Source: Nocardia ninae NBRC 108245
GTDB lineage: Bacteria > Actinomycetota > Actinomycetes > Mycobacteriales > Mycobacteriaceae
Reading direction: 5' to 3'
Length of the DNA stretch: 64,000 nucleotides
Assembly: GCF_007990755.1 (NCBI RefSeq)
Contig: NZ_BJXA01000046.1
Span: 1-64,000, forward strand
In this document: positions 1 to 46,029 of the stretch, piece by piece
Layout of the letters: the number at the start of each line of letters is the position of its first letter
Position numbering within the stretch: position 1 is the stretch's first letter
Position numbers and translations under genes: made by a program
Notes under the pieces: model-generated
What the model was told of the DNA's origin: nothing
Seen by the model: the letters and a program-made list of their open reading frames with translations, nothing else
Database searches by the model: none

Positions 1-60
1 CACGCCGGGCGTCGCCGGGTAGCGCACGCGCCGCCGATCGCGGCCGTACTCGGTGCTCAT
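1..60 (-). CDS. Start of a further gene of the carotenoid operon (partial)
   Basis: Twenty codons run from an ATG at 60 off the left edge. The ATG overlaps the stop of the upstream cyclase gene (ATGA), so the gene is translationally coupled to the crt operon. The visible residues are polar and basic and do not identify a family. In other actinobacterial crt operons this place is often taken by a UbiA-type prenyltransferase (lycopene elongase), but nothing in these 20 residues proves it. Confidence 0.5.
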   Translation of the reverse strand, partial: MSTEYGRDRRRVRYPATPGV

Positions 61-389
61 TGCCGCACCTTCGCCTGGCGCTGCAGCGTGCGCTCCCAGC
101 CCAGCAGGACGGCGGTCACCAGCGCGAATCCGAACAGGAAGTCCTCCACCGGGATGTCCCATGGAAAGCGCAGTCCGAGAATGTGTTCCGGGTTGTACAG
201 CACGATCGGTGCGTCGAGTTTGGTGAGAAATCCATCGACCAGGATCTGGAAAACCAGCACGATCAGCATCGTCAGCCAGTAGGCCGGGCGCCGGAACAAG
301 CCGGTGCGCAACACCATTCGCTCGACCAGGCACACGATGACCACCGCCGCGACGGCGGGCAGCGTGTATCCCACTCCGGTGAGGTTCAT
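57..389 (-). CDS. crtYd: Lycopene cyclase domain protein (CrtYd/CrtYf type)
   Basis: This 110-residue membrane protein belongs to the heterodimeric lycopene cyclase family, whose two small subunits together close the ionone ring at the ends of a linear carotene. Three hydrophobic segments are visible, and the family motif P-x-E-D/E-x-x-F appears as PVEDFLF near residue 80. The ATG at 389 is chosen because it overlaps the stop of the preceding cyclase gene; the longer reading frame upstream is only an extension into that gene. Whether the product makes beta-, epsilon- or C50 rings cannot be read from the sequence. Confidence 0.88.
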   Translation of the reverse strand: MNLTGVGYTLPAVAAVVIVCLVERMVLRTGLFRRPAYWLTMLIVLVFQILVDGFLTKLDAPIVLYNPEHILGLRFPWDIPVEDFLFGFALVTAVLLGWERTLQRQAKVRQ

Positions 390-757
390 CGTCCCGCTGC
401 CTTTCTCGCGTCGCCGACCGATTTTTCGGCATTGCCGAACCACCGCCGGCCCATACCGAGCAGCGTGCCGACCGCGACGTAGGTGAGCAGGCCGCACAGC
501 GGCACGACGGCAAAGAACAGCAGCTCCTCGAGCGGCATCTCACCGGGCAGCCGAAACCCGAGCACGTAGCGGTCGTTGTAACCCCACACGTCCGCGGCGA
601 TCGCCACGAGATCCCAGACCACGAACAGCGCGGCGGCCGGCCACAGCGCACCGAGCAGTACCCTGGGCCGCCGGTATACCCCCGGGCCGAGGAACTCCAG
701 CGGCGCCGTCACAGCGAGGCAGCCGAGCAGAACGAGCAGGTAGTGCCAGTGATCCAT
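386..757 (-). CDS. crtYc: Lycopene cyclase domain protein (CrtYc/CrtYe type)
   Basis: This 123-residue integral membrane protein is the partner subunit of the heterodimeric lycopene cyclase. It has three predicted membrane helices and the motif PLEELLF around residues 75-81, matching P-x-E-E-x-x-F of the family. It starts 9 bases after the phytoene synthase stop and overlaps the next cyclase gene by four bases, so both subunits are made from one message. The last 20 residues are basic and probably cytosolic. Confidence 0.88.
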   Translation of the reverse strand: MDHWHYLLVLLGCLAVTAPLEFLGPGVYRRPRVLLGALWPAAALFVVWDLVAIAADVWGYNDRYVLGFRLPGEMPLEELLFFAVVPLCGLLTYVAVGTLLGMGRRWFGNAEKSVGDARKAAGR

Positions 758-766
758 CAGGCCTCC

Positions 767-1756
767 TCAGCCGTGCTCACGATGATCGACGGCATCGAGC
801 GAGTGCGGAGCGTCCGAACCGGACCGGCTGGGAACCGTCGTCCGGCGCGCCTGCCACGCGCGCAGCAGACCTGTCGCGCCGACCCTGATGCGGCGCGCGG
901 TGCCGACCCTGGCGCGACGACCGAACACCTCGAAATCATCGGCTTCGATGCGGTCGAGGATCTCCCCGTACAGCACCAATGCTGTGGCCACGCAGGGACG
1001 CGAGCGCGGCGCGAGCAAGTCGATCCCGTGGCGCGCGAAAGCATAGATATCCCTGGTGATTTCATGCTGTTCGGCCAGCGCGCGACGCACCTTCGGGTCG
1101 ACGCGTTGCTGCGTACGGCACCACAGCAGCAGCTCGCGGTCCACGCCGTGCGCCGCCAGTTCATCGGCGGGCAAGTAGACGCGGTTGCGTGCCAGGTCCT
1201 CATCGACGTCGCGCAGAAAGTTGGTCAGCTGGAACGCTTTTCCGAGCGCGGCGGCATAAGGTGCGGCGGCCTCCACCGATTCGGTGGTGCCGAGCACCGG
1301 CAGCAGTTGCAGTCCGATCACCTCCGCCGACCCGTAGACATACCGGTCCAGTGCCGCACGATTCGGATAGTCGGTGACCGACAAGTCCATCCGCATGGAC
1401 TCCAGGAAGGCGTCGAACAAGCGGCGAGGTATCCGATAGGCGTCCGCGGTATGCAGCACCGCGGCCAGCACCGGATCACCGGCCGCATCGGCGTCGCTGA
1501 ATTGTCCAGCGAGAGCCTGCAATCGGGCCGCCCGCTCAGCAGAGGTCAACTCCGGCTGGAACTCATCCAGGATGTCGTCGGCGCGCCGGGCGAAGCCGTA
1601 GAGCGCGTGCACGGCCGGGCGCTGATCGGGCGCGAGCAGCCTGGTCGCGAGGAAGAAGGTCTTGCCGTGAGCGGCGTTGAGCTCGCGGCAAAGGTGGTAG
1701 GACCGTCGTAGGTCGGGGTCGGTGATACCGGCCGCGTCCAGCTCGGTGCGCGTCAT
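767..1756 (-). CDS. crtB: Phytoene synthase
   Basis: Phytoene synthase condenses two geranylgeranyl diphosphates to phytoene, the first committed carotenoid step. The 329-residue protein has both metal-binding aspartate motifs of the squalene/phytoene synthase family: RRADDILDE near residue 65 and FLRDVDEDLARNRVYLP near residue 160. The ATG at 1756 is chosen because it overlaps the crtI stop (ATGA) and begins where family members begin; a longer in-frame extension lies inside crtI and is rejected. It is the fourth gene of the operon. Confidence 0.95.
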   Translation of the reverse strand: MTRTELDAAGITDPDLRRSYHLCRELNAAHGKTFFLATRLLAPDQRPAVHALYGFARRADDILDEFQPELTSAERAARLQALAGQFSDADAAGDPVLAAVLHTADAYRIPRRLFDAFLESMRMDLSVTDYPNRAALDRYVYGSAEVIGLQLLPVLGTTESVEAAAPYAAALGKAFQLTNFLRDVDEDLARNRVYLPADELAAHGVDRELLLWCRTQQRVDPKVRRALAEQHEITRDIYAFARHGIDLLAPRSRPCVATALVLYGEILDRIEADDFEVFGRRARVGTARRIRVGATGLLRAWQARRTTVPSRSGSDAPHSLDAVDHREHG

Positions 1757-3276
1757 TTCGCTGTCCGATCCATCGCCGCACCAGCGGGGCGGACAGATCG
1801 TTGCCCGGCCCCGGTGATGCGGTCGGCGGCAAGCCGTCCGGAGATCAACACCGGTGGGATGCCGACGCCCGGCACCGTGGATCCACCCGCGAGCACCGCG
1901 TTGTCGATACCGCGAATCATGTTGGTCGGCCGGAACGGGCCGGTCTGGGCGAAGGTGTGCGCCAGCGCGAACGGGCTGCCCGCCAGCATGTCCTGGCTCG
2001 CCCAGTCGTCCGGGGTGACCACCCGCAGCAGCTCGGCGTCGCGCAGGAGCGTGCCGCCGAGCCTGCGCCGCGCGAGCTCGAGAATTTCGGTCGCGTACTC
2101 GGGTCCGGTCTGCGCCCAATCGATCTCGCTCTGCGCGAGGTTGGGCACCGGCGCCAGGATGTAGAGCAGATCACGCCCCTCCGGAGCCAAGGACGGGTCG
2201 CCTGCTGTCGGCCGCGTCACCAGCAGCGATGGGTCCGCCATAACGCGGCCTTCCTTGATGATGTCGCGGAAAGCCTCGTGCCATGCCGCGCCGAACAGCA
2301 AGCAGTGGTGCGGAATTCGCGGTTCCCGCGCGCAGCCCACGTGGAGCACGACTGCGGACGGCGCGGGCCGGACGGCGATCGGACGCCGCGAGCGATGCCC
2401 GAGCAGTTCGTAGGAACGATGCCGTTCGGTCGTCAATACCACTGCGTCACAGTCGATCCGCTCGCCTCGGGCGGTTTGTACCGCGACTACTCGACCGCCT
2501 TCGCGTGCCAACTCCGTCACCGTTGTGTCGTAGCGGAAGCGCACACCCGCCGCCTCGGCCGCCGCCGCGAGCGCGTCGGGCACCGCCCGTATGCCGCCGC
2601 GTGGGAAAAACACTCCGGCCATGGTGTCCATGTGGGCGATCACCGCGTAGGCAGCCAACGCCCGGTCCGGCGCGACTCCGGCGTACAGCGACTGAAAGGT
2701 GAACACCCGCCGCAACTCCGGGTCGGTGATGAACTCGGCGACCTTGCCGTCCCAGTGCCGGAATCCGCCCAGCGCGGCCAGCCTGGCCAGCGCGGGGGTC
2801 AGCATCGACAGGGGTGATTCGAAGTTCGAGGCGATGAAGCCGTCGAACTCCACCGCGTACAGCCGGCTCAGCCACGCACGTAGCTTGCGGTAGCCCGCGG
2901 CCTGTCCGGCGCCCGCGAATGCGGTGATGGCGCGCACCATTCGCTCTTCGTCGCTGTGCACGTCGAGAGTGCGCCCGTCGGCGTAGATCGCATGATAGGC
3001 CGGATCGACCGGCACCAGATCCAGCCGATCCGCGGTCCGCTCGCCGACCGCGGCGAAGACCTCGTCGATCAGCTCGGGCATCGTCAATACCGTTGGGCCG
3101 GTGTCGATGTGGTAGCCACGCAGATCGAGCCGCCCCATCCGGCCGCCGGGCACCGATTCGCGTTCGAGCACCGTGACGGTCCGCCCGCGTCCGGCCAGGT
3201 GCATCGCGGTCGACAGGCCGGCCAGCCCGGCGCCCACCACCACGACGTGGTCGGCACGTCCCTTGACTGTGCGCAT
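1753..3276 (-). CDS. crtI: Phytoene desaturase
   Basis: CrtI is the FAD-dependent desaturase that converts phytoene to lycopene. The 507-residue protein begins with a dinucleotide-binding motif (VVVVGAGLAGLSTAMHLA) followed by ERESVPGGRMGRL. It ends with the conserved block around DNAVLAGGSTVPGVGIPPVLISG, which is diagnostic for CrtI-type desaturases. The ATG at 3276 lies 13 bases after the crtE stop with the purine-rich site GAGGAAG in front. Its stop overlaps the crtB start. Confidence 0.95.
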   Translation of the reverse strand: MRTVKGRADHVVVVGAGLAGLSTAMHLAGRGRTVTVLERESVPGGRMGRLDLRGYHIDTGPTVLTMPELIDEVFAAVGERTADRLDLVPVDPAYHAIYADGRTLDVHSDEERMVRAITAFAGAGQAAGYRKLRAWLSRLYAVEFDGFIASNFESPLSMLTPALARLAALGGFRHWDGKVAEFITDPELRRVFTFQSLYAGVAPDRALAAYAVIAHMDTMAGVFFPRGGIRAVPDALAAAAEAAGVRFRYDTTVTELAREGGRVVAVQTARGERIDCDAVVLTTERHRSYELLGHRSRRPIAVRPAPSAVVLHVGCAREPRIPHHCLLFGAAWHEAFRDIIKEGRVMADPSLLVTRPTAGDPSLAPEGRDLLYILAPVPNLAQSEIDWAQTGPEYATEILELARRRLGGTLLRDAELLRVVTPDDWASQDMLAGSPFALAHTFAQTGPFRPTNMIRGIDNAVLAGGSTVPGVGIPPVLISGRLAADRITGAGQRSVRPAGAAMDRTAK

Positions 3277-3289
3277 CAGCTTCCTCTCG

Positions 3290-4387
3290 TCACAGCTGCC
3301 GTGCGGTACAGAGCAGCGCCATCTGTTCCAGTGCGTGCCGCGGCTCGCGGCCGAGCGCGCCGGTCCGCAGCGCAAGCAGCGCATCGGTGACCCGGTCGGC
3401 GATCATGGCTTCGATGCGTTCGGCGGCGCCCGAGGCCGCGATCAATATCCGGCAGCGCTCGATCGCCGCGGCGTCGAGTTCGGGCCGGTCGAGCAGTTCG
3501 GACAGTTCCCGTCGCGCGTGCGCCTCGGCCATGTCCAACGCCGCGACGACCACGCTGGTGGCTTTGTGCTGGCCGAGATCGCTGTCCTGCGGCTTGCCGG
3601 TGATCGAAGCTGCCCCGAAGATCCCGAGCAGATCGTCGCGCAGCTGGAAGGCCTCGCCGATCCGAGTTCCGTAGTGGCCGAGGGCTTTCAGCGTCGTCCC
3701 GGTGGCGCCCGCCAGCGCCGCGCCCAATTCGAGCGGGCGCCGGACGGTGTAGTTGCCCGATTTCGCGCGGGCGATGTCGAGCACCGTGTCCAGGGTCGGC
3801 CGTTCCCGCGTGTCGTTGGCCAGATCCGCGAGCTGACCCATCGCCAGCTCCACCCGCATCGCGTCGTAGCGCGGCCATAACCGGGCCAGTTCGTCGGCGC
3901 CCACACCACTGTCGCGCAGCATCTGCTCGGCCCACACCAGGCACATGTCACCGAGCAGGATCGCGGCCGACTCACCGAACCGTGGCGGTGTCGCGGGCCC
4001 GCCGCGGTGCGGTGCGGCCAAGCGCAGGTGTGCTGCCGCGGATCCGCGCCGCAGGACGGCGGCGTCCATGACGTCGTCCTGCAGTAATGCGAAGGCGTGC
4101 AACAGTTCCAAGCTGGCCGACGCGCGCAACGCGGCGGGGTCGGGTTCGGCGGCACACAGCCAGCCGAGGTACATGAAGGTGGAGCGCAGACACTTACCGC
4201 CGAGGGCGTATTGGGCCAGCACGTCGTGGACGCCGGTGGCGCGGAGTTCGGCCACCCGCACCCGTCGCAAGAATTCGGTGAGTTCGTCGAGGACCAGCGC
4301 GCGGGTATCGGCCCGCCAGCGCTCGAACCCCATGGCGAGCCCCGGCGCCGACGATGTCCGGGCGGGGTCGAAAGACAGTGTGCTCAC
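3290..4387 (-). CDS. crtE: Geranylgeranyl diphosphate synthase
   Basis: This polyprenyl synthase supplies C20 geranylgeranyl diphosphate for the carotenoid pathway. It has the first aspartate-rich motif (LLQDDVMD, followed by RRGS) and the second in the actinobacterial form RDDLLGIFG. The start is set at GTG 4387: the purine run GGAGA lies six bases upstream of it and the GTGA overlaps the stop of the glycosyltransferase gene. An ATG six bases further upstream directly abuts the GGAGA and is less likely. The product is about 365 residues, normal for the family. Confidence 0.93.
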   Translation of the reverse strand: MSTLSFDPARTSSAPGLAMGFERWRADTRALVLDELTEFLRRVRVAELRATGVHDVLAQYALGGKCLRSTFMYLGWLCAAEPDPAALRASASLELLHAFALLQDDVMDAAVLRRGSAAAHLRLAAPHRGGPATPPRFGESAAILLGDMCLVWAEQMLRDSGVGADELARLWPRYDAMRVELAMGQLADLANDTRERPTLDTVLDIARAKSGNYTVRRPLELGAALAGATGTTLKALGHYGTRIGEAFQLRDDLLGIFGAASITGKPQDSDLGQHKATSVVVAALDMAEAHARRELSELLDRPELDAAAIERCRILIAASGAAERIEAMIADRVTDALLALRTGALGREPRHALEQMALLCTARQL

Positions 4388-5691
4388 CGGCATTCTCCGT
4401 TTCGCGAGGCCGACATCCGGGTCAACGACCGATCCGCGCCGACTTCGGCGAGGACATCCGAGATCACATCGAAGGGCGAAGCTTTGGCCATGTCCTGACC
4501 CAACCTGGTTGCGGCGGCGCGGAATTCGCCGTTGCTCAGCACCCGGTCCATTGCTGCAGCCAGCCTGGCGGGGCCCGGCCGCGCGGTGCCCAGATCGATG
4601 CCCGCACCCGTGTACGCCACCCGCGCCGCGACTTCCGGTTTGTCGGCGGTGTCGCCCGCGACGATCAGGGGCACGCCATGGCGCAGCGCTTGCTGCACAC
4701 CGCCATAGCCACCGTTGGTGATCATCACGTCCACGCGCGGCAGCAGGTGGGTGTACGGAACGTACTCGGCGGTATACGCATTCGCCGGCAGCGGACCGAG
4801 CACGTCGCGGGAACCACCGGTGCACACCACCACCCGAACGTCCGTGCGCCGGCTCAACGCCGTGAGAGTGGGCCGGACCAGCCGGCCGAGATCCGCGTTG
4901 TCCCAGGTCCCCTGGGTCACATGGACGACGGTCCGCGCGCCAGACAGCTCGCTCCACCAGCTCGGCAGCGCGGCATCCTTGGGACTGTCGATCGGTATCG
5001 GGCCGGTGAACACCACCGAGGGCGGTAGATCGCGCCGCGGATATTCGAAGCCGGGCACCGTGAACTGGAGCAGCCGGTCCGCGAGCACCGGCCAATCGAA
5101 CAGATGAACCGGCGCGGGCCCGAGACCGAGCCCGCGCAGGATCGCAGTCAACCGACGTTGGCCGTCGCGGAACAACACCTGACGCACGAATCGATGCATC
5201 GCCGTGTAGTCGCGGTCCGGTTGCGGTTGCCAGCCCATGCCGAACGGTGGTGTGTCCGCGCTCGACAGCATCAGCGGCACCACACCGCAGGCCAGCACCG
5301 GCGGCCGCGGGCGAGGTCCCAGCAGCAGCGGAACGGCACCGGTGAACATCCCGTCCACGAGCACCGCGTCGTAATCCGTCCGGCTCAACTCGGCTGTCAA
5401 CGCGCGGAACTGCGCGACGATCGGGTCGAGGAAACCCGAGCGCAGCTCCGAGCGCCCGGTTCGCCATCGACGGATCAGGTTCGGCGTACCGCCGGGTGCG
5501 GCAGACCGCAGCACTGCCGCGTCGGCCGCGAGCACCGAGCAAGGCAGACCCTGCGCCGCGATGGTGTCGCGGAAGGCCGCGCCGGTGAGCATCCGCACCT
5601 CATGGCCGCGTCGGCGCAGATTCGCCGCGACGGCGAGCATGGGCGCCACATGACCGGGTATGGGACTCACCGCCACGAGATATCGAGCCAT
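4384..5691 (-). CDS. MGT-type glycosyltransferase, first gene of the carotenoid operon
   Basis: This 435-residue GT1/GT-B glycosyltransferase has the N-terminal fold start (ARYLVAVSPIPGHVAPMLAVAANL). Its C-terminal sugar-nucleotide site around residues 320-365 includes ITNGGYGGVQQALRHGVPL, the PSPG-like signature of macrolide/CrtX-type enzymes. As first gene of the crt operon, coupled to crtE, it probably glycosylates a hydroxylated end product; that substrate is inferred from position only. No carotenoid hydroxylase is visible in the window. A good ribosome site (AAGGAAG) precedes ATG 5691. The leader back to the putative promoter is about 170 bases. Confidence 0.85.
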   Translation of the reverse strand: MARYLVAVSPIPGHVAPMLAVAANLRRRGHEVRMLTGAAFRDTIAAQGLPCSVLAADAAVLRSAAPGGTPNLIRRWRTGRSELRSGFLDPIVAQFRALTAELSRTDYDAVLVDGMFTGAVPLLLGPRPRPPVLACGVVPLMLSSADTPPFGMGWQPQPDRDYTAMHRFVRQVLFRDGQRRLTAILRGLGLGPAPVHLFDWPVLADRLLQFTVPGFEYPRRDLPPSVVFTGPIPIDSPKDAALPSWWSELSGARTVVHVTQGTWDNADLGRLVRPTLTALSRRTDVRVVVCTGGSRDVLGPLPANAYTAEYVPYTHLLPRVDVMITNGGYGGVQQALRHGVPLIVAGDTADKPEVAARVAYTGAGIDLGTARPGPARLAAAMDRVLSNGEFRAAATRLGQDMAKASPFDVISDVLAEVGADRSLTRMSASRNGECR

Positions 5692-5885
5692 GCCGAGCTT
5701 CCTTCGCTGTCATCACCGCACATCCGGACCGTTTGTCCGCACCTCGCGCGGGCACCCCGGCACCGAGGCGACCGCATTGGATCTCGTGCACCGCCGCGAC
5801 GGTCGCCGTGCGCCGGGACTCACGTCCGATCGCAGACCCTTCGACGCCATCGTCAGTCCGGTCACCCACGATGCTACCCGCAAAT

Positions 5886-5902
5886 GATTCAAAAACGATG
5901 CA
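5886..5902 (-). promoter_or_regulatory. Direct-repeat operator in front of the crt operon
   Basis: On the plus strand the sequence reads GATTCA-AAAAC-GATGCA: two hexamers with starts 11 bp apart. The same arrangement with both hexamers intact occurs at 6910 and 7419. Read in the direction of the crt operon, a possible -10 element (TAGCAT, 5871-5876) follows nine bases after the repeat. The region 5692-5942 holds no gene and appears to be promoter plus a long untranslated leader. Confidence 0.6.
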
Positions 5903-5942
5903 CATATTCGGCGTGCTGCGCGCGACCCGCCGGAAGCACAGG

Positions 5943-6803
5943 TCAGCGGACTTCCAACACCGCCGCACGCTGCACTTCGTCCACGGCCGACTCGAGGGTG
6001 TTGACCCGAACCGCAGCTTTGGATGGCCCTCGCTCCAGCCACCCAGGTCCGGCCAAGACCCAGTCCGCCCGCGACCGGTCCGCCGGAACCGGATGCGCGG
6101 TGTCGCGCGATTGCGACCACAGCACCACCACCGGCCTGCGCTCATGCTTGGCCAGCGCCGCGGCCAACGCGTCTGCGGGCACGGACGCGCCGAGCAGCAG
6201 CGCGGGCAGCCCGACCTCGGCCAGCGCGGCACGCAGCACTTCCAACGGGAGCACATGGCTTTCCCCGCCGGTGCAAGCGAGCACGATCGGCGCCCGATCG
6301 GCAGAGTTACGCAACAACGGCACCGCCCGGTGCAGGCTGGTGGTCACCGCCCAGGACAGCAGATGCTCCACATCGACCAATCCGGCGCCGCCGAGCTGCC
6401 TGCGGACTATCTCCGCGAAAGCGGGGCGGCACAACTGGTTCCATGTCACGACGACGCCGTAGTGGATGACGTGCGCGGTGATCGCGGCGAGCAGTTCGGC
6501 ATGGTCGAGCCGCTCAGCCGCCGACAGTACCGGCACGATGTCACCGCGCACCGGCACCGGACCCGCCACCGCGCGGGCGGCCACGGCAGCGCTCGCCGGG
6601 CTCGCGCCCGCACGCACCAGGTCGACCATCCGAGCCGTCACCGCCAGATCGGTCTGCGTGTAGTGCCGGTGCCGACCCGGCAGATGCTGCGGCGGGCCCA
6701 GGCCGTATCGCCGGTTCCAGCTGCGCAAAGTCGCGACCGGAACACCCAGCGTGCGGGCCACCATCCCGACGGTGTACTCGACCAGCGGCTCATCGTTGCT
6801 CAC
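5943..6803 (-). CDS. MerR-family regulator with a cobalamin-binding-like domain (CarH/LitR type)
   Basis: This 286-residue regulator has a MerR winged helix at residues 9-75 (YTVGMVARTLGVPVATLRSWNRRYG). A helical segment and a B12-binding-like Rossmann domain follow. CarH/LitR proteins repress carotenoid genes in the dark through adenosylcobalamin. Here the EH pair of the helical bundle (E146-H147) and the presumed lower ligand (E181-S-H183) are kept. Gln replaces the usual Trp ten residues before EH, and Pro186 replaces the Gly of H-x-x-G. Light or B12 sensing is therefore possible but unproven. It lies directly upstream of the crt operon on the same strand with its own promoter region. Confidence 0.85.
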   Translation of the reverse strand: MSNDEPLVEYTVGMVARTLGVPVATLRSWNRRYGLGPPQHLPGRHRHYTQTDLAVTARMVDLVRAGASPASAAVAARAVAGPVPVRGDIVPVLSAAERLDHAELLAAITAHVIHYGVVVTWNQLCRPAFAEIVRRQLGGAGLVDVEHLLSWAVTTSLHRAVPLLRNSADRAPIVLACTGGESHVLPLEVLRAALAEVGLPALLLGASVPADALAAALAKHERRPVVVLWSQSRDTAHPVPADRSRADWVLAGPGWLERGPSKAAVRVNTLESAVDEVQRAAVLEVR

Positions 6804-6909
6804 CGACTCACCGCGCTCACGTCACCGCCGCTCCCCTCGGTGGCCTGCCCGAAGCTACTCATCACCGAGCCTCCTACCGTCGGATGCTCGCAAATCGTAG
6901 CGCAGTAAT

Positions 6910-6926
6910 GATGCAAACTCGATGCA
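6910..6926 (-). promoter_or_regulatory. Direct-repeat operator in front of the MerR gene
   Basis: The plus strand reads GATGCA-AACTC-GATGCA, two perfect hexamers with an 11 bp period. In the direction of the regulator gene a possible -10 (TACGAT, 6894-6899) follows ten bases later. This spacing closely matches the crt operon site and suggests autoregulation. Confidence 0.65.
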
Positions 6927-6936
6927 ACACGACCGG

Positions 6937-7389
6937 TTACTCGGCGCGTTCCGCCGGAGTGGCCTCGTGGGCTCGCCGTCCGTCGGTGCGGCGCTGTCTT
7001 TTGAGTTCGGCCTCGTGCAGGTGCCGGTGGCCGCCGGTGAGCTGCCGCGCCCGCTCTTCCCAGTCCCGGACACAGCGGTAGTAGGTCTCGTCGTAGTCCT
7101 CGACGACCTGGAAGGTCCAGCGACCCGGTAGCACGTTGCGCCCGACCAGGTCTCGCGCGAGTTGATCAGCCAATTCGTCGTGCCCGGCGTCGCGGAGCAG
7201 CTCAGTGGCTTCCTCGATGGCGAAGTCCGCGGTTCCGGTCTGACGGTGGAAGTTGTACAGATGACCGCGCGCCACTTCGACGATTTCCAGCGCTTCGGTG
7301 AGCTTTCCGACGGCCGCGACGGTGCGCGCGTCGTAGGCGTCCGCAGTCGGGTTACCGTCGTCCAGTCTTGGATCCGATATCGACGTCAT
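6937..7389 (-). CDS. Conserved actinobacterial hypothetical protein
   Basis: This soluble 150-residue protein, rich in acidic and basic residues, has the recognisable stretches ARGHLYNFHRQTG, ELLRDAGH and GRNVLPGRWTFQVVEDYD. I recall similar proteins of unknown function in mycobacteria and relatives; no catalytic motif is evident. The ATG at 7389 is preferred over the upstream in-frame one because the latter would lie inside the putative promoter. The gene carries the same GATGCA repeat 30 bases upstream as the crt operon, which suggests co-regulation with carotenoid synthesis. Confidence 0.8.
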   Translation of the reverse strand: MTSISDPRLDDGNPTADAYDARTVAAVGKLTEALEIVEVARGHLYNFHRQTGTADFAIEEATELLRDAGHDELADQLARDLVGRNVLPGRWTFQVVEDYDETYYRCVRDWEERARQLTGGHRHLHEAELKRQRRTDGRRAHEATPAERAE

Positions 7390-7418
7390 GCTTGCCAGAT
7401 ACCCGACCACGCCCAAAA

Positions 7419-7435
7419 GATGCATTATTGATGCA
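7419..7435 (-). promoter_or_regulatory. Direct-repeat operator in front of the 150-residue protein gene
   Basis: GATGCA-TTATT-GATGCA, with the same hexamer, spacing and orientation as the sites at 5886 and 6910, lies 30 bases upstream of the start codon. It would overlap the core promoter. Confidence 0.62.
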
Positions 7436-44460: not shown

Positions 44461-44479
44461 ATCTGACCATACCCGAGAT

Positions 44480-44496
44480 GCGTGCTCGATGCACGC
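44480..44496. promoter_or_regulatory. MarR operator 2
   Basis: GCGTGC-TCGAT-GCACGC has the same 17 bp length and outer arms as operator 1 and lies close to the MarR start. Confidence 0.7.
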
Positions 44497-44991: not shown

Positions 44992-46029
44992 ATGTTCAAC
45001 CTGAAGCTCAACTGCGCGACGCGACGCTACCGTGCGGGAGGTCGGCGTCGATTGCGGTTCAGGTGGGCCGTGATTGCGCTGGTCGGGATAGTCGTCTGCT
45101 CCTGCAGCAGGGGGACCGAGGAGTCGAGAGGCATCGAGGCTGCACTCGACCGGATGCCAGGGGTACACCAGGTTTCGACCGATTTCGACACAAACTTCTC
45201 GACGGTGGTCGTGCTGGCCGGGGATGCGTCGGCCGAGCAGACCAAGGCGGTGATCGAGGTTTTCCGCGACCGGATAGCGGCTGCATCCGGTTTGCAGCGG
45301 CGGCGGATTGATATCGAAATCCGTTGGGGCGAGCAGCCGAGCTCGTTCAAGGCAGGGAGAGACGGGTTGGCTGCGGCGCCGGACCGCGCTGTCCAATGGC
45401 ACACGCTGAGCCATGCTTTTCCCGAGGACGAGGTGGCATGGACCTACAAGTGGGACTCGTACTGTTGCGATGACTTCGGGCCGGGTGACCTTATCGCAAA
45501 GGGCCACAACGGAATCGGCCATATTTCTTTGAAGCCGTTGGACGCGAACGACTTCCGCGCGGTGAGCGAAACGTACCGGCGCTTGATACGGGAGTTCCCT
45601 GAACTGGCGGGGGCTGAATGGGAGGTCGGCGCCTGGGGTCGCAAGAGCGGGTTTCTGCGCATGGACAACCGGTACCCCAGCGAGCTCGAATTCTCGGTCT
45701 GGCAACGACTCAACGAGGACCAAACCCTGCCCCACAGTGTGCATATGGTGACACGATCCGAGCCACGTTCATACCCAACGCGCCCTCACGTCAGCGAGCA
45801 ACTCCAGTCATCGAACTTCGATGACGCGAAACTCCTGGCCGAGAAGCATCTGCCTATCGTCGCAGAACTGGGCCCGGCCGCCGTCGATTACCTGGCTACC
45901 AGCCGCGACAGCCTGGCAAGCAGCGACCCGGACCGCAGCCTGCGAATCACGATCGGCGACTGCCAATATCGTGACCGCCCACCCAGCCCGGCTGAGCAGC
46001 CGTTGGTCGAGCGATACGGGAAGTGCTGA
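44992..46029 (+). CDS. Putative lipoprotein of unknown function
   Basis: The 345-residue protein has a long basic n-region, a hydrophobic segment (WAVIALVGIVVC) and a lipobox-like VVCSC around residue 38. The mature part has no recognised domain. It contains a paired-Cys motif (YCCDDF) and a C-terminal GDCQYRD. ATG 44992 is the first in frame; the family is unknown to me. Confidence 0.65.
   Translation: MFNLKLNCATRRYRAGGRRRLRFRWAVIALVGIVVCSCSRGTEESRGIEAALDRMPGVHQVSTDFDTNFSTVVVLAGDASAEQTKAVIEVFRDRIAAASGLQRRRIDIEIRWGEQPSSFKAGRDGLAAAPDRAVQWHTLSHAFPEDEVAWTYKWDSYCCDDFGPGDLIAKGHNGIGHISLKPLDANDFRAVSETYRRLIREFPELAGAEWEVGAWGRKSGFLRMDNRYPSELEFSVWQRLNEDQTLPHSVHMVTRSEPRSYPTRPHVSEQLQSSNFDDAKLLAEKHLPIVAELGPAAVDYLATSRDSLASSDPDRSLRITIGDCQYRDRPPSPAEQPLVERYGKC

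Follow-up and report, generated by a model that had tools for sequence, protein, structure and literature searches.

CarH of Thermus thermophilus and Bacillus megaterium (class I LitR) has a MerR-type DNA-binding domain followed by a B12-type region, and controls carotenoid genes. Its operators are tandem 11-bp direct repeats, whereas other MerR proteins have (pseudo)palindromic sites (PMC9304148, PMC8156234), and they overlap promoter elements (PMC9304148); these and the other papers identified by PMC number are represented here by excerpts. CarA of Myxococcus xanthus keeps EH and the cobalamin-ligand His motif, lacks the Trp of the Wx9EH motif and occurs alongside a paralogue with the same operator (PMC9304148, PMC8156234); this Trp-less pattern is that of a B12-independent paralogue (PMC9304148). 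Class II LitR, represented by PplR/PmlR of Pseudomonas, is likewise B12-independent, keeps the four-helix half only, and controls a photolyase, a cryptochrome-like protein and a fatty-acid-modifying enzyme (PMC9758184). Actinobacterial LitR controls carotenoid genes in Streptomyces, where it acts via the sigma factor LitS (PMC12705666). Here, we describe a direct repeat of two hexamers that stands before three minus-strand units in a carotenoid locus of Nocardia ninae NBRC 108245, within a stretch of 64,000 nt (positions 1 to 64,000 of contig NZ_BJXA01000046.1, referred to as the window), and that is very probably the operator of a family of CarH/LitR-like MerR regulators. Computation on the sequences shows the motif itself, its conservation and geometry, the genes that adjoin it and its dependence on the presence of the regulator. 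In a literature search that covered few subscription papers, we found no description of the operator or of CarH-like regulation in Nocardia; for Nocardia together with CarH, the only paper found, in its excerpted part, concerns a MarR-type CrtR branch including Nocardia (PMC6739363).

Direct repeats in the carotenoid locus and in the genome

A scan of the window confirmed the positions of three sites that an earlier note on this DNA had described as two hexamers with an 11-bp period in the same orientation, each before a minus-strand unit. In plus-strand letters, the sites read GATTCAAAAACGATGCA (5886–5902), GATGCAAACTCGATGCA (6910–6926) and GATGCATTATTGATGCA (7419–7435), all with a period of 11 bp. 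Given as plain coordinate differences, the distances to the downstream start codons are 195 bp for the glycosyltransferase gene at the head of the crt operon (5691), 107 bp for the MerR gene (GTG, 6803) and 30 bp for an open reading frame (ORF) of 150 aa (ATG, 7389), whose product is referred to as U150. In the gene sense, the putative operator of the crt operon is TGCATC-N5-TGAATC; this operator was also found in N. suismassiliense, and other glycosyltransferase promoters of the genus have sites too. That of the regulator's own promoter is TGCATC-N5-TGCATC, with comparable sites in relatives.

With up to two mismatches allowed, the 64-kb scan returned 8 matches, an ordinary count compared with the 6.0 expected, and the signal thus resides in the near-exact matches. 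Such a count would fit chance occurrences picked by eye, but that explanation has a negligible probability, as the exact and extended forms of the motif occur far above their controls and are tied to related promoters. The earlier note had not seen the arrangement elsewhere in the window; there is indeed no other exact match, but two more matches to GATGCA-N5-GATGCA with one mismatch lie outside the carotenoid locus, at 44477–44493 and 45282–45298.

In the 9.7-Mb genome, GATKCA-N5-GATGCA had four exact matches, compared with one for the reversed control pattern. The four matches are the three window sites and one on a second contig (C61:2526). In N. suismassiliense (G079), the starts of the window's contig (C46) and of C61 map approximately 30 bp apart, which places the fourth site just past the left end of the window, at the far end of the carotenoid cluster. 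It begins 66 bp before an SRPBCC gene (named by eye). Its function is less sure: neither its flank nor its spacer conforms to the extended motif, and with respect to the SRPBCC gene it is oriented the other way round. A fifth, slightly weaker site, GATGCACAAGTGATTCA, lies on contig C11, flanked on one side by a second MerR gene and on the other by a lipocalin gene that is followed by a photolyase gene on the same strand.

Conservation of the motif and its link to the presence of the regulator

The strict extended motif, WWYGATKCANHANYGATKCA, was found in 101 of 148 genomes of the genus Nocardia, and its reversed control in none. Among the three window sites, only the one at 5886 satisfies it; the 6910 site has a C in mid-spacer, and the 7419 site an A where the leading pyrimidine is expected. 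The extended form was used because the looser pattern GATKCA-N5-GATKCA, present in 144 of 148 genomes, is diluted by a recurrent sequence, GATGCAACGCRGATGCA, that is seen in regulator-less genomes too (G027, G044, G046 and G114 among the genomes listed). This sequence is perhaps a conserved coding stretch and a false friend of the operator. As for orthologous promoters, other genomes of the genus provided 29 MerR and 29 U150 loci, of which 12 and 4, respectively, held the repeat, and a perfect copy lies within 700 bp upstream of 30 of 64 MerR genes.

The occurrence of the motif follows that of the regulator. Relatives of the window's MerR protein, P0001, are encoded in at least 126 of the 148 genomes. 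The strict motif is present in 100 of these 126, compared with 1 of the 22 others (Fisher P=1.3e-11, kinship ignored); among the 22 regulator-less genomes, two (G137 and G140) were assigned by elimination, and some regulators may have been missed. The lipocalin gene gave a parallel result. No upstream repeat with up to two mismatches accompanied any of the six lipocalin matches in five regulator-less genomes, and one accompanied all 11 matches in ten regulator-bearing genomes. As these ten had been hand-picked from motif-positive genomes, the informative half of the comparison is the 0 of 6. The scan covered 350 bp before the aligned part of the protein, which mostly began at about residue 53, and thus about 190 bp before the start codon.

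Outside the genus, conservation becomes sparse. Copies with two mismatches precede five of six MerR genes in another genus of the family, at −78 to −94. In an order-wide set of 249 genomes, the strict motif was detected in nine, six of them outside Nocardia with seven sites in total, and the control matched once. One of these sites lies by a crtE-like gene (G311), and two adjoin MerR genes (G159 and G235). In G275, of another genus of the family, one site (L336, at about 1501) is part of a run of four TGCATC/CGCATC copies, a longer operator that is nearer to the three or four units of CarH; nothing obvious was found near its second site, nor near the site in G298. The seventh, in G314 of another family (L329), lies between divergent relatives of the U150 gene (62% identical) and of the SRPBCC gene (85%).

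The proposal of the earlier note, that the repeats are the operator of the MerR regulator, is thus supported by their rarity, by their occurrence in orthologous promoters and by the power of regulator presence to predict the motif. The binding itself is inferred.

Promoter layout at the repeats

Site-based analyses were deduplicated by sequence, leaving 114 distinct sites, or 107 when restricted to strict-form sites with enough flank; the consensus, neighbour, third-repeat and −10 analyses left out 80 named U150 loci (L145–L224). In the gene sense, the operator reads TGCATCRnTTn TGCATCRnTT and consists of two tandem 11-bp units. At the 107 sites, no third repeat was enriched at offsets −33, −22, −11, +22 or +33. 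A −10-like TAnnnT element starts 14–16 bp from the first base of the proximal repeat in 75 matches, compared with a background of approximately 0.4 matches per position beyond +24 and two matches at positions 14–16 on the opposite side. The repeat is thus mostly located 9–10 bp before a TAnnnT box without a −35 element: hexamers 16–18 bp upstream of TAnnnT had at most three of the six letters of TTGACA in 241 of 243 comparisons. This geometry indicates that the repeats occupy the place of the −35 element and that the promoter is one-directional.

In the window, all on the minus strand, the predicted −10 hexamer of the crt operon is TAGCAT (5871–5876), 9 bp downstream of the proximal repeat, the geometry common to most sites, and that of the regulator gene is TACGAT (6894–6899), 10 bp downstream. 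The U150 promoter differs. Its putative −10 hexamer, TATCTG (7396–7401), lies 17 bp from the proximal repeat and 6 nt before the ATG (TGCATC-N17-TATCTG-N6-ATG), with the proximal repeat of the candidate operator (7419–7435) at the −35 position. By script, TGCATC-N17-TA followed by ATG was found at every one of the eight U150 genes of Nocardia that have a perfect repeat, as well as at the relative in G314, whose strict site has the same 17-bp geometry, and not at two U150 genes with imperfect repeats.

Since the repeats stand in the −35 place, they could be promoter elements of an alternative, LitS-like sigma factor. This is highly improbable: one sigma factor is unlikely to tolerate a spacing to the −10 of mostly 9–10 bp together with 17 bp at U150, two identical units are unexpected of a −35 element, and the TAnnnT −10 is of the housekeeping type.

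With regard to the mode of action, we propose that, most probably, two DNA-binding domains arranged head to tail would bind the two units, as supplied by the class A regulator encoded in the window and by its class B paralogue encoded elsewhere in the genome. The operator would replace the −35 element at most promoters, and at U150 the proximal unit would itself stand at −35 with a 17-bp spacer. Bound regulator would probably block RNA polymerase, and light or photo-oxidative stress, we think somewhat more likely than another signal, would lift the block. Carotenoid synthesis, the regulator itself, U150 and the lipocalin–photolyase operon would then be switched on together. Repression, in preference to activation, and light as the signal are likewise inferred.

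The same proteins might instead bind the repeats as activators serving promoters without a −35 element, an explanation that overlaps with ours and that we regard as possible but rather unlikely. The poor match of the upstream hexamers to TTGACA fits this alternative, although many actinobacterial promoters lack a −35 element and its absence is commonplace. The geometries of the U150 promoter and of the other promoters differ by approximately 7 bp, which is hard to fit to one activator contact. Light-activated LitR of Streptomyces is described as promoting transcription from the litS promoter (PMC12705666), but the accounts of other relatives, as excerpted, argue for repression: LitR/CarH is described as a negative regulator (PMC6739363), CarA requires CarS for derepression (PMC9304148), and class II LitR is released by a LOV protein, which allows transcription (PMC9758184).

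Genes next to the repeats

Genes starting within 450 bp of the 114 distinct sites were taken as neighbours and clustered. Pfam matches of representatives gave the names of the lipocalin, fasciclin, amine oxidase, dehydrogenase, photolyase, DUF6764, cyclopropane synthase and photolyase-related clusters, and likeness to the window genes those of the MerR, crtE, crtI, glycosyltransferase and U150 clusters. A named cluster provided a neighbour at 96 of the 114 sites. The counts were MerR 37, lipocalin 24, crtE 11, flavin adenine dinucleotide (FAD) amine oxidase 11, fasciclin 9, short-chain dehydrogenase 7, glycosyltransferase 5, photolyase 5, DUF6764 5, U150 4, crtI-like 3, cyclopropane synthase (CMAS) 2 and photolyase-related protein 1; ten sites lacked such a gene. 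Of the 114 sites, 62 had a neighbour of the crt, glycosyltransferase, lipocalin, photolyase, FAD amine oxidase, CMAS or photolyase-related kind. The clusters most often present on the promoter side were lipocalin (23), MerR (9), crtE (9), glycosyltransferase (5), photolyase (5) and U150 (4); divergent neighbours need not be controlled by the site. The small regulon envisaged in the earlier note is thus wider, as it takes in lipocalin, photolyase and a second regulator paralogue, and its inclusion of the 150-aa protein holds in some lineages only.

Several results weigh against the assignment of the repeats to these regulators. The strict motif is lacking in 26 of the 126 regulator-bearing genomes, and a perfect repeat is absent from the 700 bp upstream of 34 of the 64 MerR genes. 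MerR genes lie on the promoter side at only 9 sites and on the other side at 28, so that autoregulation of class B genes through this −10 element stays putative, and because many loci were fetched for MerR or U150, both are inflated in the neighbour counts. The operator also departs from that of CarH, with two units instead of three or four and with the unit nAAnYGATGCA instead of nAnnTnnACAn, of which TnnACA is unmatched. Finally, two genomes carry a strict site and no relative of P0001 at E≤0.001: G314 and G054, a 1,340-contig assembly that is the sole regulator-less Nocardia genome with the strict motif, located before a crtI-like start. In these two, the site is read by some other factor, or else the regulator has been lost or has escaped detection.

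The two genomes would also suit a different reader of the sites, with the MerR genes as mere targets. OmpR/PhoB-type response regulators are textbook binders of two direct repeats with an 11-bp period, an arrangement that is a hallmark of theirs; a MarR-type CrtR is the other candidate, in view of the reported branch that includes Nocardia (PMC6739363), and a MarR-like gene (by eye) flanks 2 of the 114 sites. We consider such a reader improbable. The presence of MerR predicts that of the motif, the genes beside the repeats are similar to the light-induced targets of class II LitR in Pseudomonas (PMC9758184), and no OmpR-type gene recurs in the neighbour clusters, a result confined to the neighbourhoods, as no systematic OmpR or MarR search was made. 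The two MarR-like genes lie approximately 110 bp from a strict site (L064 and L144, in G076 and G121); they may tie the reported CrtR-type regulators of Nocardia into the same circuit.

The MerR-type regulators

We return to the MerR family as the preferred reader of the repeats. The window's regulator, P0001 (5943–6803, minus strand), was characterized by profile searches and alignments. It aligns with Thermus CarH over both domains (residues 10–230) and scores above the cut-off for Pfam MerR_1. It is below the cut-offs for the CarH NCBIfam equivalog NF052513 (59.3 bits, E 3.4e-16; cut-off 400 bits) and for Pfam B12-binding (18.3 compared with 32.1 bits). Its features include an RSWNRRY helix, Q136-x9-E146-H147, the ligand His183, and Trp229 in place of the Ser of SxV. 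A structure model built from two sequences (pLDDT 46) was used for no claim.

The same features recur in the 64 Nocardia regulators compared. In the RxWERRY helix, R, W, the second R and Y are kept in all 64; E is replaced by N, T, S or I (by N in 56), and Q stands in for the first R of RR in 28. In the Wx9EH motif, EH is kept and Trp is replaced by Gln in 64 of 64. The B12 motif D/ExHx2G/P is represented by E and H in all 64 and by P in 62, and the cobalt-ligand His of CarH is invariant. The Ser of SxT/V is Trp in 64 of 64, and in the GG part, the first G is A in 31 and the second is kept.

As both the Trp of Wx9EH and the Ser of SxV are absent from all 64 proteins, classical CarH membership fails, and without that Trp, B12-based light sensing cannot be assumed. 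P0001 is thus CarH-like in its build and probably in its reading of DNA, while lacking the defining sensor motif of CarH. The suggestion of the earlier note that a CarH/LitR-like protein is involved stands with respect to the 11-bp direct repeats, and needs correction with respect to the two units, the other consensus and the missing Trp. In register, AAnYGATGCAn matches the CarH half-site nAnnTnnACAn at three of five fixed positions in one polarity and two of five in the other, by our own count; as this is not decisive, we claim no polarity.

The pattern of kept EH and ExHx2G/P with Trp absent is that described for CarA (PMC9304148), and Nocardia likewise has paired paralogues, although both of its classes lack the Trp and the SxV Ser, and they are mostly in different loci. 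Similarity to class II LitR is seen in the neighbour genes, but the ligand His motif, which belongs to the second half, is present in the Nocardia proteins, and we therefore did not place them in that class. In contrast to the Streptomyces route via LitS, the Nocardia crt promoter itself carries the site.

A tree of the 64 regulators, taken from loci of at least 9 kb with the named set left out, divided them by midpoint rooting into two clades of 29 (class A, support 0.98) and 35 (class B, support 0.95). The window's gene belongs to class A and the gene on contig C11 to class B. Of the 29 class A genes, 16 have a crt gene within 8 kb, eight more lie only near a lipocalin or photolyase gene, and five near neither; 30 of the 35 class B genes lie near lipocalin or photolyase. 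A perfect repeat is present within 700 bp upstream of 11 class A and 19 class B genes. In five loci (L105, L297, L320, L324 and L326), genes of both classes are close together, mostly tail to tail, and in L104 they are head to head with approximately 2 kb between them. A NarL-type regulator (by eye) lies approximately 6 kb off in several class B loci. Upstream of the window's regulator gene, a leader ORF of 20 codons with an AGGAGG-type ribosome site starts at 6862 (6800–6862, minus strand), and its stop overlaps the MerR start (GTGA); the leader ORF of N. suismassiliense has 18 codons and the same C-terminus and overlap.

The U150 protein

U150 (P0002; 6937–7389, minus strand) is a 150-aa protein with an apparently leaderless start. 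Profile searches gave no Pfam match above the cut-off and no NCBIfam match, and the predicted structure is all-helical (pLDDT 87.5), with no Foldseek match to a solved structure at E≤0.001. The protein was found in 51 of the 148 Nocardia genomes (53 matches) and also in many other Actinobacteria. Among 52 loci, the upstream repeat was perfect at seven, had one mismatch at one and two at three, and was absent at 41; G034, which was read apart from these, has a perfect repeat too, and in Nocardia sp. CDC159 (G012), the repeat is in the opposite orientation. In G047, U150 and the class A MerR gene are 0.36 Mb apart, each with a site. Three U150 genes of Amycolatopsis, examined by eye, have no repeat and keep a GGGTA-type −10 element before the ATG. 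The presence of the repeat at few loci suggests that U150 joined the regulon in a few lineages only. Outside Nocardia, no neighbour family occurs in more than 18 of 80 named loci; without a conserved neighbourhood, U150 is not a fixed partner of carotenoid genes.

The carotenoid cluster

Downstream of the 5886 site, all on the minus strand, the crt operon begins with a glycosyltransferase gene (EryCIII-like/UDPGT by Pfam; 4384–5691), followed by crtE for a polyprenyl (geranylgeranyl diphosphate) synthase (Pfam; 3290–4384, start codon putative) and crtI of the phytoene desaturase family (NCBIfam TIGR02734; 1753–3276). The next gene (770–1756) has homologues beside crtI in relatives, and from its sequence and the gene order we take it to be a crtB-like phytoene synthase gene. 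Two small membrane proteins (59–757), with homologues in L096 and L113, are presumably lycopene cyclase subunits, again from sequence and gene order. Comparison with N. suismassiliense indicates that contig C61 continues the cluster beyond base 1 of the window. Positions 5–3053 of that contig (L313) hold an FAD amine-oxidase-family protein (CrtU-like by eye), a Rieske-type protein (by eye), the fourth repeat and the SRPBCC gene.

Significance

We tentatively suggest, at less than even likelihood, that these regulators form a further LitR/CarH class. It would comprise paralogues A and B with an altered cobalamin pocket, in which another ligand (a corrinoid or tetrapyrrole) or a partner protein senses light or singlet oxygen; it would act through a minimal two-unit operator on a genus-wide photoprotection regulon, into which U150 was recruited via a differently spaced promoter.

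The operator consensus and the computed regulon offer testable predictions for a CarH-like regulator group of a whole genus, and one hypothesis would cover three puzzles of the locus: the targets of the regulator, the build of its promoters and the presence of U150. The loss of Trp in 64 of 64 proteins that keep the ligand His raises the question of what these regulators sense. The two-unit site would provide a small natural test of how head-to-tail domains of the CarH type read direct repeats.

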